This document shows, one piece after another, positions 1 to 6,910 of a stretch of 27,814 nucleotides of DNA. The notes under the pieces are model-generated. The model saw only the letters and a list, made by a program, of their open reading frames with translations, was not told the DNA's origin and did not search any database. Both the position numbers and the translations under genes were made by a program. Source of the stretch: a virus. The stretch spans positions 1-27,814 of the IMG/VR virus record IMGVR_UViG_3300018875_000070, one strand, 5' to 3'. Within the stretch, counting starts at the first letter, position 1, and the number at the start of each line of letters is the position of its first letter.

Positions 1-891
1 TTCCAGATTGACCCCGCCGAACCCTGCGCCGGTCGCCGGATCGGTGAATGCCGCCCCTGTGGCCCGCATCACGCTGTTGGCGAGTTCAAACGACAGCCGC
101 TGAACGTCGCCCTTCAGGCGCTCCATCTGGGCTCGCAGCTGGGTTTCGAGCACCGCTGCGCTCTTCGTGGCATAATCTTCGAGGCCCTTGGCCGCATCGC
201 CATAAGCATCCTTTACCGAGCGGATCAGATCCGCGTGCGCTTTGAGGCGGTCGTCAAGGGACTCGACCTTTTCCCCAGCACTCGTGAAATATTGGATGAG
301 CGCGCCACCTGCCGCGATAGCGCCGATGGTCACGAGGTTGACCGGGCTGAGAAGGGACATGAATGCCCCGCCGAGAGCCGTCACGACACCTCTGAGGCCA
401 CCAGGCCCGCTTCCCAGAACCTGACCGATCTGTGTGCCCTGCTGGAGGGCGACAGTCAGAGGGCTCGTGCCAGAGGCCAACTGCACGGCGATGTCATTGA
501 ACTGCGCGGCAAGGTTGCCGGTCTGGCTGAGCAGGTTGCTATTGGCAGCAGCCACCGTGCCAAAGCGAGCGCGCAGTTTCTCCAGAGATGCCGCATACTG
601 ATCCGCATCGATCTTGCCCTGGTTTAATGCCCGATCAAGTATCTGCTGGCCACGAGCCATCTGTTGCTGAGCGCGGAACGCCGGGTCGATCTGCATTGTC
701 AGCCGCTCGAAGGCCCTGCCAACATCGATCTGACGCTTGGCGTTGGTATCGGTGACCTTTGCAACCTCTTCGCTTGCCTGCGCAACACGGCCATGAGCTT
801 CAGAGACCTTGTTAAGATCAGAGGTAACTTTATCCAACCCCTCGGACCGACCACGGACTTCAACGGTGTCAATTGTGTTAAGTGCTGCCAT
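1..891 (-). CDS. phage tail tape measure protein, N-terminal part (cut by window edge)
   Basis: Translation from the ATG at 891-889 stays open to base 1, giving about 297 residues of a longer protein. The N-terminus (MAALNTIDTVEVRGRSEGLD) is followed by a helical heptad-rich stretch. Then comes a region with AAQFNDIAVQLASGTSPLTV and LQQGTQIGQVLG, which is the hallmark of the prophage tail length tape-measure family (TMP_2 type). A glycine-rich hydrophobic stretch (SLLSPVNLVTIGAIAAGGA) lies around residue 180-195. The protein sets tail length and is probably involved in DNA passage at infection. It lies directly downstream of the tail assembly chaperones, as in other siphophages, apart from one inserted plus-strand gene. 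The C-terminal part is outside the window. Confidence 0.9.
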   Translation of the reverse strand, partial: MAALNTIDTVEVRGRSEGLDKVTSDLNKVSEAHGRVAQASEEVAKVTDTNAKRQIDVGRAFERLTMQIDPAFRAQQQMARGQQILDRALNQGKIDADQYAASLEKLRARFGTVAAANSNLLSQTGNLAAQFNDIAVQLASGTSPLTVALQQGTQIGQVLGSGPGGLRGVVTALGGAFMSLLSPVNLVTIGAIAAGGALIQYFTSAGEKVESLDDRLKAHADLIRSVKDAYGDAAKGLEDYATKSAAVLETQLRAQMERLKGDVQRLSFELANSVMRATGAAFTDPATGAGFGGVNLE

Positions 892-983
892 TGGTGCAAT
901 CCGGTTTTCTAGGAGCAGCCACAAGGGTGAGTGCTTGCATCAGTCTCACACATCGGGAATGTTATCCCCGTCTGGGGGAATCA

Positions 984-1316
984 ATGGAAAAGTTCATAGG
1001 CGCCATTTTTCTGGCAGGAGTACCGCTCCTACTTGCCGCGGCTATGCCGGTAGGCGGAATGTACGTAGCAGCTTCCGTGCTGGCGCTACTGTCTTTTGGT
1101 ATGCTCGCCATAGCTACGGGCGGCATTCACGAGGTGGCCGCGGCAGTCCTTCTGGTTGGAGCATTCCTCTGCGTCGGCTTCGCCAATCTTGCCCGGGTTC
1201 TGACAGAAGTTCAGACAGTTGCCGCGCATTTCAGCCGCCGTCTCTCTCCCCCTGAAGTATCGTCTGGTGGCCAAGAGGCTACCCGCGAGCGCGAACCCTC
1301 AAGCACCGGTAGCTAA
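984..1316 (+). CDS. small multi-pass membrane protein (moron in tail operon)
   Basis: A 110-aa protein on the strand opposite to all surrounding tail genes. I start it at the ATG at 984, preceded by a GGGGGAA purine tract; an in-frame upstream extension to 882 has no good signal. Three hydrophobic segments are visible: about residues 4-24 (FIGAIFLAGVPLLL), 25-45 (MYVAASVLALLSFG) and 50-70 (VAAAVLLVGAFLCVGF). A short charged C-terminal tail follows. The last 4 bases overlap the end of the minus-strand chaperone gene, so the two converge. I recognise no family. Its position between tape measure and chaperone, and its reversed orientation, suggest an independently expressed lysogenic conversion gene, for example a superinfection-exclusion membrane protein; that role is inference. 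Confidence 0.6.
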   Translation: MEKFIGAIFLAGVPLLLAAAMPVGGMYVAASVLALLSFGMLAIATGGIHEVAAAVLLVGAFLCVGFANLARVLTEVQTVAAHFSRRLSPPEVSSGGQEATREREPSSTGS

Positions 1317-1660
1317 GAGCTCTTCGGCCTCCGCTTCGCCATCTCGGTCATGTACGTGCCGTCCATGCTGCGGATGAGGAAGAAGAACCGCTCGAACTCG
1401 TCAGGATCAGTGAGCCCGTAGCGGCGGGCGTAACAATCAACGGCAGTCCAAGGAATCGGACCGGCGGCTCCGAAGCCGAGCGGGCGATCGTTGTTCAGAT
1501 CCCAGAACGCCCGCCAGACGAAGAGGAGGTGAGGCGCGACTTCGGGCTGTTCAGCAACCGATTGCGCTAGGTCTTCGCCCCGCTCGGCAGCCACTTCCTG
1601 AAGCCACTCGGATATTCCGCTCTGCCCCCAGGAAAGCCGCCACAGCAGGGCGTCTGTCAG
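1313..1660 (-). CDS. tail assembly chaperone, frameshift-extension (GT-like) segment
   Basis: This frame encodes 115 residues from base 1660 to the TAG at 1315-1313. It overlaps the end of the upstream chaperone gene in the -1 frame. It has no ATG at its 5' end; a GTG at 1594 is the first usual start, but coding-like sequence (LTDALLWRLSWGQSGISEWL) extends back to the slippery site. The segment LLFVWRAFWDLNNDRPLGFG, followed by PIPWTAVDCYARRYGLTD and EFERFFFLIRSMD, is typical of the second tail-chaperone product of siphophages. The most likely product is a fusion of about 251 aa made by -1 ribosomal frameshifting at 1660-1666, analogous to lambda gpG-T. Independent initiation at GTG 1594 is the alternative. 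Confidence 0.8.
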   Translation of the reverse strand: MTDALLWRLSWGQSGISEWLQEVAAERGEDLAQSVAEQPEVAPHLLFVWRAFWDLNNDRPLGFGAAGPIPWTAVDCYARRYGLTDPDEFERFFFLIRSMDGTYMTEMAKRRPKSS

Positions 1661-2067
1661 TTTTTTGCGTCTTCCTCGACGCCGAGGGCGCCCTCGTCGG
1701 CCACGATGCTCGCAGCCCAGGCGACGGCATCACGGAAGCGGCGCCATTTCGGGTTGAGCAGAAGTTCCTTTGCCTGCTCCTTGGAGTACGGCGCGGGCTT
1801 GCCATTGATCATGACGCCATCCCAATCGAGGAGAACCGTCTCGAGGAGGCAGGTCGCGGTGATGCGGTCGAGTTCCTCCGGGTCGATCTTGCCGCCCTGC
1901 TTCTTGGCGCGCGGCAAAGCATCGATGAGACGGGCCTGCAGCTTGCGATAATCGGCATTGCCGACGCCGCGCACCTTCAGGCGCAAATCGCCCATCTCCG
2001 GGATGTGATCGACCCAAGCCCCCTGCTCAAAGCGGGTGGCATCAATCGCGATATCATTCAGCTCCAT
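1657..2067 (-). CDS. tail assembly chaperone (gpG-like short product)
   Basis: A 136-aa protein starting at ATG 2067 (MELNDIAIDATRF). The frame runs open further upstream, but that part overlaps the preceding gene and has no coding character. It contains LRLKVRGVGNADYRKLQARL and LLETVLLDWDGVMINGKPAP, a pattern common to tail-assembly chaperones and tail proteins of HK97-like phages. The start overlaps the end of the upstream 64-aa gene by 14 bp, suggesting translational coupling. The final codons form the slippery sequence that links this frame to the downstream extension. Short and long products would chaperone the tape measure during tail-tube assembly. Confidence 0.8.
   Translation of the reverse strand: MELNDIAIDATRFEQGAWVDHIPEMGDLRLKVRGVGNADYRKLQARLIDALPRAKKQGGKIDPEELDRITATCLLETVLLDWDGVMINGKPAPYSKEQAKELLLNPKWRRFRDAVAWAASIVADEGALGVEEDAKN
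1660..1666 (-). promoter_or_regulatory. programmed -1 ribosomal frameshift slippery heptamer A-AAA-AAC
   Basis: On the minus strand the zero-frame codons are GAC GCA AAA AAC TGA. The heptamer A AAA AAC has the canonical X XXY YYZ phase and is followed at once by the zero-frame TGA stop (1659-1657). A -1 slip continues as CTG ACA GAC GCC into the open frame that ends at 1313. A weak stem (CGCC/GGCG, 7-nt loop) lies about 10 nt downstream; I see no strong pseudoknot. The gene pair sits between tail tube and tape measure, exactly where siphophages conserve this frameshift. Confidence 0.85.
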
Positions 2068-2248
2068 TCTGAGCGTCCTTCTTTGCCGTGGCCTTGGGCC
2101 CGGTCTTGCTGGTTTCCTTGGCGAGGCCCTTGCTGACGAGGATGTCGGCATAGGCATCCGACACCTCGACAACCTCGCCCTTGGCGAATGAGACTTTCTT
2201 CGACGCAGGATAGCCGTCGAAGTTGTCGGTGATCTCTACGGACTTCAT
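2054..2248 (-). CDS. small virion-region protein, 64 aa
   Basis: Starts at ATG 2248 (MKSVEITDNFDGYP), overlapping the tail-tube stop codon by 4 bases (ATGA). Residues 17-45 (KVSFAKGEVVEVSDAYADIL and VSKGLAKE) resemble the short 'beta-strand plus terminal helix' domain also seen in the 76-aa protein at 5191-5421. A lysine/alanine-rich tail follows (SKTGPKATAKKDAQNGAE). Such proteins occur beside tail and capsid genes in many alphaproteobacterial siphophages, but I know no assigned function. Tight overlap on both sides shows that it is co-translated with the tail-tube and chaperone genes. Confidence 0.65.
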   Translation of the reverse strand: MKSVEITDNFDGYPASKKVSFAKGEVVEVSDAYADILVSKGLAKETSKTGPKATAKKDAQNGAE

Positions 2249-3174
2249 GCCACTGCCCTCGTGATTTTGATGCTGCACTGCTCGGTCGAATCGTAGACGG
2301 CACGGATCGGCATGCTCACGATCACGTCGTCGCTCTGGCCACCGGCGCGCACCTCGCCATTGCCGAAGATGACCTTGGGCAGCAGGAAGGTGTATTTCTG
2401 GCCGGAGGCGAGGCCGAGCGTGAAGGAAATCGAGCCCGAGCCGTGGTCGAGAACTTTCTGGTAGAGGTCGTTCGACTGGAAATAGGTCTCGATGGTGCCC
2501 GTCACGTCGCACATGCCCTCCCCGAGCTCGTCGGAGTAGACATTGCCGACCAGAGGCCGGTTGCGCAGGTTGTTGGCGATCTGCAGGTTCAGCGTGCGGG
2601 TCGGCGGGTTAGCGCCCAGGCCGGTCACATTCAGGTTCGCCACGCTGGCAGACGAGGACATGACCGGGGTGGAGGCCGGGGCGGCATAGGTCGCACCCGT
2701 CACCGCGGCGTCGTCCAGTTCTTCCCGAACGCCCATCAGGTCCATGGTGCCGGTTACGATCTGGCGCGAAGCAATGTCGAAGCTGATGGAGTTGACCATC
2801 ACGCCCATGAAGCGGCGGTAATTCTCGACGCCGCCGACCGTCAGCGCCTCCTCGAAGGTGAGGCTCTGCCGGGTCGTGCCGTTCTTGAGCACGTTCGTGG
2901 CCCAATTGTTGAAAAGGGCCGCCGCCAGGATGTCATCGAAGCTGCCGTAGGAGAACTCGAACGGATAAGAACCCGTCACATCCATGCCGGTCAGGATCTC
3001 GTCGCGGATGTTGCGATCGGCTTGGACCTCTTGAGAGGTCGCGGTCGACTTGTTCGTCCGCAGGCCGCCGCCCGTGGTGCGCAGCGTCTTGAACGAAGGG
3101 GTTGCGGGCGTCTGCCCGTAGGCGGTCTCCGCGACATAAGCGACGCGGCGGCTGGCGCCAGTAGCGTAGGCCAT
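2245..3174 (-). CDS. major tail tube protein
   Basis: A 309-aa protein with ATG at 3174 and a good ribosome binding site (CAGGAGA) upstream on the minus strand. The N-terminus MAYATGASRRVAYVAETAYG, with the following TPATPSFKTLRTTG, is the usual opening of the siphophage tail-tube family (Phage_tube-type). The body is beta-rich, with repeated Thr/Val/Gly strands (DVTGSYPFEFSYGSFDD; GTMDLMG; GTIETYF) and ends in MPIRAVYDSTEQCSIKITRA. Many copies polymerise into the tail lumen. It lies between the tail terminator and chaperone genes, the expected place. Size is typical for this family. Confidence 0.88.
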   Translation of the reverse strand: MAYATGASRRVAYVAETAYGQTPATPSFKTLRTTGGGLRTNKSTATSQEVQADRNIRDEILTGMDVTGSYPFEFSYGSFDDILAAALFNNWATNVLKNGTTRQSLTFEEALTVGGVENYRRFMGVMVNSISFDIASRQIVTGTMDLMGVREELDDAAVTGATYAAPASTPVMSSSASVANLNVTGLGANPPTRTLNLQIANNLRNRPLVGNVYSDELGEGMCDVTGTIETYFQSNDLYQKVLDHGSGSISFTLGLASGQKYTFLLPKVIFGNGEVRAGGQSDDVIVSMPIRAVYDSTEQCSIKITRAVA

Positions 3175-5485: not shown

Positions 5486-6910
5486 TTAGGCCACGCGACC
5501 GAAGTCGCCGTAGATGAAGGCTTCAGGGCGGTAGACTGCAAGGGCAAGCCGCTCTTCCGCCAGGATCGTGACGAGGTTCTTCACGAAGTCATCGTTCTGA
5601 TAGCCAGCTTCGACGCTCGCGTCCCAGCGGTCGAAGACCTGGGCACCGAGCTTGAAGGCGCCGGTGAGGAACTTGTCGACTGCGATTGCCTGCGTCTGCA
5701 CAACCGGGAGGCCCCAGAGGGTCGGCGCGATGCTGCCCTGCGGGTTGCCGATGATGTAACGGCCAACATCGTCCTTCAGAGTCTCGATGAATGCCCAATC
5801 GATCGGGTTCATGACGTGACCGGTTGCCGGATACTCCGCAAGAGCAGCCTGCAGCATGGCCAGACGGATTTGGTCGATGCTGGTTGCCCCGGCAACCGTG
5901 ATCGGCGCCGAATAGGCCGTAGCCTGCGGGATGATGCCGAGCAGGTTCTGGCCCGTGCCATCGCCATTCAAGAGCTGCGCTTCTTCCTTATAGGCGAGGC
6001 CATACAGCAGACGCTGGTCGATGGTAGAGCGAAGCTGCGAGACATCGCTCAGGATCTGACGAGACGCCCTCATCCAATGCGCGATGACCTTTGCAGAGGT
6101 TGTCACGAGGTCGAACTTGATGTCCGACTCAGGTTTCGTGGCACCTTCCGCCACCGGGGCTGCATTGTTGGTGAACCCGGTTTCCTTCACGTATTCCAGC
6201 GAGTTGCCGTCCATGCGACCGGGGGAGATGAGGTCTCGAACCGTCAGGCGGCGCTGCGGAAGGGGCAGAATGCCAGGCAAGCGCGTCGTCTGCACGGCAT
6301 CGCCCACAGACCCGGCAGCATCCGTCGTAGCCGACGTGAGGGTCGCCTTGATCTGCATCCGCCCGCCGGTGGCCGTCTTGGAGAAGCCGGTCGCCTGGAA
6401 CGCCTTGAAGCCCTCGCTCTCGACGAATTGCTCGCCGATGGACTTCTGGGCGTCGTCACCGCTCTCGCGTCCGCCACGGGCGAGCTTCTGCTCGATCTGG
6501 TCGACCTGTTCCTTCAGGCCGTTCATCTTGAGCAGGGCCTCGTCTGCCTTCTCCTTGAGGGAGTTGGTCAGCGTTTCGCCGCTCTTCGCCTTGCCGAGAG
6601 CCTCATCGGCGATGGCCTTGACGGCATCGAACGACTTCTGGAATTCGGCTTTCACTTCGGTGGCGAGCTGCTCGGCCGTCTTGGTGCCACCATCGTTCGG
6701 AGCCTCGAAGAAGATGCGCGGGCCGATGGAGCAGGATGCGAGACGTGCGATGCCGGCGCTGGCACCAGCCGCCACGAGGGTGCCGAGGCTGTAGAGTTCA
6801 CCCGGGCCAACGGGGCCGACAGCGGCGTTGGCGTCCCCGGAGGAGAGAAAGAACACCGACGCCACAAGCGCGAGCGTCAGCATCCCGAAAACAGATCGGA
6901 AAGACTTCAT
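5486..6910 (-). CDS. major capsid protein, HK97 fold, with signal-like N-terminus
   Basis: A 474-aa protein from ATG 6910, with an AAAGGG ribosome binding site 8 nt upstream. Residues 78-147 form a charged coiled-coil delta domain (AEQLATEVKAEFQKSFDAVK and MNGLKEQVDQIEQKLA), the internal scaffold removed by the protease. The capsid fold follows with LPLPQRRLTVRDLISPGRMD, NNAAPVAEGATKPESDIKFD, AHWMRASRQILSDVSQLRST and the C-terminal VRIL-type strand (VTILAEERLALAVYRPEAF). Unusually, residues 1-30 look like a signal peptide (MKSFRSVFGMLTLALVASVF, then FLSSGDANAA) followed by a second hydrophobic stretch near residues 40-57; no internal ATG offers an alternative start until about residue 129. 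Confidence 0.93.
   Translation of the reverse strand: MKSFRSVFGMLTLALVASVFFLSSGDANAAVGPVGPGELYSLGTLVAAGASAGIARLASCSIGPRIFFEAPNDGGTKTAEQLATEVKAEFQKSFDAVKAIADEALGKAKSGETLTNSLKEKADEALLKMNGLKEQVDQIEQKLARGGRESGDDAQKSIGEQFVESEGFKAFQATGFSKTATGGRMQIKATLTSATTDAAGSVGDAVQTTRLPGILPLPQRRLTVRDLISPGRMDGNSLEYVKETGFTNNAAPVAEGATKPESDIKFDLVTTSAKVIAHWMRASRQILSDVSQLRSTIDQRLLYGLAYKEEAQLLNGDGTGQNLLGIIPQATAYSAPITVAGATSIDQIRLAMLQAALAEYPATGHVMNPIDWAFIETLKDDVGRYIIGNPQGSIAPTLWGLPVVQTQAIAVDKFLTGAFKLGAQVFDRWDASVEAGYQNDDFVKNLVTILAEERLALAVYRPEAFIYGDFGRVA

Follow-up and report, generated by a model that had tools for sequence, protein, structure and literature searches.

A probable programmed -1 ribosomal frameshift in the tail assembly chaperone gene of a metagenomic phage, with candidate signals flanking the slip site

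How is a second coding region translated when it overlaps the end of a tail assembly chaperone gene and lies in the -1 frame relative to it? The question is raised by the IMG/VR metagenomic virus record IMGVR_UViG_3300018875_000070, of which a stretch of 27,814 nucleotides (nt), hereafter the window, was analysed. The genes of interest lie on the minus strand. The 3' end of the first open reading frame (ORF), which we call the 0 frame, reads GTC GAG GAA GAC GCA AAA AAC TGA. The -1 frame, read from the C at position 1660, begins CTG ACA GAC GCC. The features at the junction are as follows.

1657..2067, minus strand: 0-frame ORF, gpG-like tail assembly chaperone of 136 amino acids (aa), from ATG 2067 to TGA 1659-1657
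1674..1677, minus strand: internal Shine-Dalgarno-like core GAGG, 7 nt before the heptamer, identified by spacing count, codon-bias and synonymous-shuffle tests
1660..1666, minus strand: slippery heptamer A_AAA_AAC in the phase X_XXY_YYZ, from the sequence read and its conservation in homologues
1657..1659, minus strand: 0-frame stop TGA directly 3' of the heptamer, an adjacency kept in 37 of 51 loci
1313..1660, minus strand: -1 frame ORF, gpT-like domain of 115 codons, from CTG 1660 to TAG 1315-1313
1580..1648, minus strand: predicted 3' hairpin, 11 nt after the heptamer and covering GTG 1594, identified by folding z-scores

We consider it highly probable that the two frames are connected by a programmed -1 ribosomal frameshift of the G/GT type. 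Most ribosomes would translate the 136-aa chaperone and terminate at the TGA. In a minority, tRNA-Lys and tRNA-Asn on AAA AAC would slip back one base together, re-pair with AAA AAA and let translation continue from CTG, giving a chaperone with a second domain and a predicted length of 251 aa. An earlier sequence-only reading of the window had reported the heptamer at 1666-1660 in exact phase with the TGA directly after it, and this is how the sequence reads. It had also proposed that mass spectrometry should find a peptide spanning DAKK-LTDALLWR, which we correct here. We strongly infer tandem slippage, and since the simultaneous movement of both tRNAs retains the Asn of the 0 frame, the junction would read ...EDAKN-LTDALLWR...; the peptide with DAKK would arise only if slippage came before the decoding of AAC. 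A single AAAAAAC is present in the window, where chance predicts 1.07, so the case rests on its phase, its position and its conservation.

Homologous loci were gathered by protein similarity and not by motif, and the junction was read in each. The sources were IMG/VR contigs (queried with the 0-frame protein or its alignment), one Methylobacterium contig and 28 named phages (tblastn). In total 65 loci were used, from which a non-redundant set of 51 (at most 80% identity in the 0-frame protein) and a stricter set of 25 (at most 50% identity) were drawn. The Sulfitobacter M39 locus (L193), which has no annotation and two candidate heptamers, and an incomplete locus (L069) did not enter the statistics. 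Loci found by motif (L070-L149, described below) were kept out of every conservation statistic.

An in-phase XXXAAAC was found at the homologous spot in 51 of 51 non-redundant loci and in 25 of 25 loci of the stricter set. The sequence-only reading had called this the conserved G/GT frameshift position and had advised a comparison of the heptamer in related phages, and the comparison came out in its favour. The heptamer was G_GGA_AAC in 27 loci, A_AAA_AAC in 23 and C_CCA_AAC in one; the locus with C_CCA_AAC (L066) is the sole exception to purine triplets among the 51. The three X bases switch together across a codon boundary (GCA AAA, GCG GGA, GTC CCA) and the residue encoded at the switching triplet varies between Lys, Gly and Pro. 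As the triplet changes in concert while the residue varies, we concluded that selection acts on the slippery nucleotides and not on the protein.

Two explanations that dispense with ribosomal slippage cannot account for the GGGAAAC members and were rejected. Transcriptional slippage could yield the fusion on a run of six A, and the window does have such a run, but 27 of the 51 homologues carry GGGAAAC and one CCCAAAC, without a long homopolymer, and we find this origin scarcely credible. The same low probability is given to an indel that arose in the A run during sequencing or assembly and split one ORF. The record is metagenomic and homopolymers are error-prone; the two-frame layout is nevertheless shared by five close relatives from separate samples and by complete phage genomes, many of them with GGGAAAC, and these independent genomes refute the indel.

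It was also considered whether the second ORF is a separate gene, translated without frameshifting from its own start (GTG 1594 or one upstream) by re-initiation or coupling. GTG 1594 does exist as codon 23 of the -1 frame, and in related phages the annotated second gene often begins at an internal start. However, constraint on the codons of the -1 frame sets in at the slip codon and not at GTG 1594. Substitutions relative to the five close relatives fell on third positions of the -1 frame in 16/22, 38/48, 32/45, 29/39 and 32/42 cases, and in the stretch before GTG 1594 nearly all changes were synonymous in that frame, so that these 22 codons are conserved as -1 coding sequence. The earlier statement that the -1 frame is open to 1313 and coding-like from the slip site on is borne out by its 115 open codons and by this pattern. 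Furthermore, GTG 1594 lies inside the predicted stem, its AGGA is just 1 nt away, and the codon was not found outside the close group. No conserved independent start for the second frame was seen among the homologous loci, and the slip heptamer was present in every locus read. Homologues with their own second-frame start and without the heptamer, named beforehand as the refuting case, did not occur among the 65 loci. We regard translation from a separate start as very improbable. A joined frameshift coding sequence is annotated in phiCbK, BL57, RcRudolph, RcSimone-Hastad, AH03, RcHartney and Siara. In S0112, RSP, Shy, Lacusarx and TIVP-H6 two genes are annotated, the second from an internal start and with no fusion, as was anticipated in the warning that gene callers would miss it.

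The protein families place both halves among tail chaperones. The 0-frame protein matched PHROG 313 (7e-12) and the N half of PHROG 8233 (1e-11), both described as 'tail assembly chaperone'. The -1 protein matched the Pfam family Phage_TAC_18 (PF23812), whose name likewise stands for a tail assembly chaperone, with 65.4 bits against a curated cut-off of 27, which makes the -1 domain a member. It also matched two tail chaperone families, PHROG 3817 and, over its C half, PHROG 8233, and no difference from the three families was detected. PHROG 8233 is a single family spanning both halves of the fusion, and was for that reason counted in favour of a fused product. The Pfam search gave no match to the lambda-type G or T families for either half. 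The chaperone pair would work like lambda G/GT but belongs to a different sequence family.

AlphaFold2 models were good enough to use, with a mean pLDDT (predicted local distance difference test) of 81 for the 0-frame protein and 84 for the -1 domain. In the latter a confident helix was modelled at residues 2-11, upstream of GTG 1594, and an independent start at this codon would lose it. When the PDB was searched by fold, the HK97 tail assembly chaperone 2OB9 ranked first for the 0-frame protein, though weakly (E 0.28), and nothing was found for the second domain. The closest predicted viral fold to the -1 domain was the fused chaperone of Acinetobacter phage Loki. A PDB sequence search gave no meaningful match for either half, and Rfam gave none within positions 1200-2300 of the window.

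If the frameshift is real, the heptamer could drive it alone, with the GAGG, the stop and the structure as by-products of protein constraint or shared ancestry. None of the three flanking features is universal, and a conserved ALxWxLxWG motif forces some base complementarity, both of which speak for this possibility. The upstream core, the adjacent stop and the downstream structure nevertheless all exceed sequence-based null models. GAGG was found at the exact 7-nt spacing from the heptamer in 30 of 51 loci. The fourth codon ahead of XXY encodes Glu in 41 of 51 loci, by GAG in 34 of them and by GAA in 7, compared to a GAG:GAA ratio of 251:237 in the remainder of these genes (Fisher P 7e-5). 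A GGAG, GAGG or AGGA core was present in the upstream interval of 34 loci, against 23.5 +/- 2.6 after within-gene synonymous codon shuffling, a count higher than in all 2000 shuffles. In the set of at most 50% identity there were 16 such loci against 10.7 +/- 1.8 (P 0.004).

The 0-frame stop follows directly after the heptamer in 37 of 51 loci, against 7.2 +/- 2.5 expected once the conserved Leu codon that opens the -1 frame is taken as given. The sequence-only reading had spoken of a very close stop; close it is, yet this understated a stop that is directly adjacent and whose adjacency is conserved. The Leu codon is CTA in 16 of 51 loci, compared to 61 of 1031 CTN codons elsewhere (Fisher P 9e-8), and CTA at this position is what a 0-frame TAA or TAG stop requires. 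Among other viruses, a stop immediately 3' of the slip site is known from Rous sarcoma virus and barley yellow dwarf virus. In a bacterial test system, a stop in place of the natural codon reportedly cut frameshifting, with release factor 2 (RF2) competing (Horsfield 1995 via PMC4373837). As the stop lowered frameshifting there, the conserved adjacent stop may by analogy restrain slippage and tune the short:long ratio rather than stimulate the shift.

Downstream, a 45-nt stretch beginning 8 nt past the heptamer was more stable than windows of the same locus adjusted for G+C content (mean z -1.15 +/- 0.18), and this was the strongest of 49 offsets over 720 nt. When the codons of the -1 ORF were permuted synonymously, the family mean of the structure z-score was -1.17 +/- 0.19, and -1.58 +/- 0.32 in the set of at most 50% identity. 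Many members of the locus set have an uninterrupted hairpin of 8-12 base pairs, separated from the heptamer by some 5-9 nt. A search for one hairpin register shared by all loci found none, the pairs sliding between i+j = 42, 43 and 44. The predicted hairpin of the window (1648-1580) had a z of -2.73 against dinucleotide shuffles and of -2.4 (P 0.012) against synonymous permutation, and the five close relatives have predicted folds that closely resemble it.

Thus protein-preserving synonymous tests still show an excess for both the core and the structure, both excesses hold in the set of at most 50% identity, and the adjacent stop lies above the Leu-conditioned expectation. We consider it unlikely, though well within reach, that the heptamer acts alone. 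The loci are related and the P values do not come from independent samples, a concern that the set of at most 50% identity and saturated third positions lessen but do not remove; several intervals and window lengths were tried, which makes the nominal P values softer. There is moderate support for the reading that the upstream GAGG and the downstream structure would raise slippage and that the adjacent stop would set the ratio by competition or pausing with the release factor.

Beyond the family, the motif GAGGANGNCGCAAAAAACTRA has matches in at least 119 viral contigs. Among the 80 motif loci that were read, the site ends a 0-frame ORF in each, and a tape-measure-sized ORF lies just downstream in 67 of the 71 with enough sequence. 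About half of the 80 match profiles built here; the rest include other tail-chaperone families, such as XkdN-like Phage_TAC_5 (PF08890) and lambda T (PF06223). In a random-codon control the -1 runs had a median of 18 and a 95th percentile of 141, so that a long -1 frame is by itself weak proof at these loci. We tentatively propose, as a possibility somewhat short of even, a composite cassette, made up of GAGG, a 7-nt spacer, XXXAAAC, an immediate stop and a hairpin, that is common to the frameshift sites of this family and of several unrelated-looking tail-chaperone families. Slippage at such a cassette would be stimulated by the internal Shine-Dalgarno contact and by the downstream hairpin, and competition from the release factor at the adjacent stop would fix the short:long ratio and so tail assembly. 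A review states that the shifts in certain tailed phages seem to lack stimulatory signals (PMC5009743), and the composite signal may therefore be under-described. Conserved Shine-Dalgarno sequences have been found in 3 of 13 clusters of insertion sequences and prophages, and hairpins in 3 of 5 phage clusters (PMC4066793). Our literature search, with most subscription journals outside its reach, found no description of such a composite signal for tail chaperones.

Several points weigh against the frameshift as we read it. It is inferred from sequence. The window does not have the short perfect hairpin of 8-12 base pairs seen in many relatives, and its 45-nt stretch gave a z of +0.47 under synonymous permutation; the hairpin that it has is longer and spaced 11 nt from the heptamer. 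Finally, A_AAA_AAC is weak on Escherichia coli ribosomes (PMC5009743), which may not match the tRNA set of the host. The sequence-only reading had called it one of the strongest known slippery sequences. This holds for mammalian ribosomes, on which it is among the most shifty, but not for E. coli, in which it is far less shift-prone than A_AAA_AAG (PMC5009743). A low efficiency is therefore expected in bacteria, which fits the gpG:gpGT ratio of 30:1 in lambda (PMC5009743) and the 6-7% frameshifting measured for a phage tail-chaperone cluster (PMC3711429).

The neighbouring genes agree with the layout given earlier, in which products of 136 and about 251 aa, both predicted, lie between tail tube and tape measure.

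2245..3174, minus strand: tail tube protein, upstream (PF18906, 3.6e-48)
1..891, minus strand: tape measure protein, downstream, from ATG 891 or TTG 924 and continuing past the window edge (PF06791, 5.8e-17; PHROG 8892, 2.5e-52)
2054-2245, minus strand: 63-aa ORF between the tail tube and chaperone genes, with weak similarity only

The lambda gpG/gpGT pair is reportedly the G/GT -1 frameshift of double-stranded DNA phage tail genes, as described by Xu, Hendrix and Duda in 2004. The locus shares with it the position between tail tube and tape measure, the -1 direction, a heptamer in phase shortly before the first ORF ends, and a short and a long chaperone, here predicted from sequence. It differs in that its halves have no match to the lambda T or TAC families of Pfam. 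By analogy, the 136-aa form would cover the tape measure protein, as lambda gpG does, and the less frequent fusion would bring in tail tube subunits, as lambda gpGT does. Nearer to the window are the Caulobacter phages phiCbK and Colossus, for whose pre-tape-measure chaperone the slip sites AAAAAAC and GGGAAAC have been published (PMC3556154); they are homologous to both halves and have the same heptamers, but share only about 28% identity. A search of the full text of PMC3556154 for any mention of a Shine-Dalgarno sequence or of structure downstream of this site found none. The E. coli dnaX gene resembles the locus in its upstream Shine-Dalgarno-like sequence and A-rich heptamer, and perhaps in its downstream hairpin. 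It uses A_AAA_AAG, whereas the family studied here always has AAAC with the Asn codon AAC; in dnaX the -1 product is the shorter one, whereas here it would be the longer one, and the stop adjoins the heptamer. Within the range of 6-17 nt upstream that was searched in PMC4066793, GAGG lies at 7 nt in the window and in 30 of 51 loci. For a dnaX-type downstream hairpin there is the family mean z given above, and in the window only the long hairpin with its 11-nt spacer.

Some further observations concern the surrounding genes. The 63-aa ORF has a weak likeness to uncharacterised families, DUF7302 (just under the cut-off) and PHROG 2616. Between the chaperone and tape measure genes sits an antisense ORF (882-1316, plus strand; 984-1316), whose product is small, hydrophobic and probably a multi-pass membrane protein (MEKFIGAIFLAGVPLLLAAAMPVGG...). 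It had no Pfam match, was not present in any other fetched locus, and could perhaps be a moron. In Escherichia phage KarinMuster_Bas82 the corresponding gap (1797-2892 of locus L031) holds antisense genes annotated as an endonuclease and a superinfection immunity protein. As antisense genes are also found there, this gap may be a place where accessory genes insert repeatedly. In the capsid position, the ORF (5486-6910, minus strand) as read from its first ATG opens with a signal-peptide-like stretch (MKSFRSVFGMLTLALVASVFFLSSGDANA), and its real start may lie further inside.

The frameshift itself is expected, and would add one more phage to the well-known G/GT class; the description of the signal is possibly new. 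Throughout the family the slip heptamer keeps the form XXXAAAC, which is a weak choice for E. coli. The codon-level evidence for a Shine-Dalgarno-like element upstream, for a stop next to the heptamer and for structure downstream contrasts with the review, in which certain shifts of tailed phages seem to need no stimulator (PMC5009743). The motif GAGGANGNCGCAAAAAACTRA picks out tail-chaperone-like frameshift loci in divergent families, could improve phage annotation, and makes the mechanism that would set the ratio testable.
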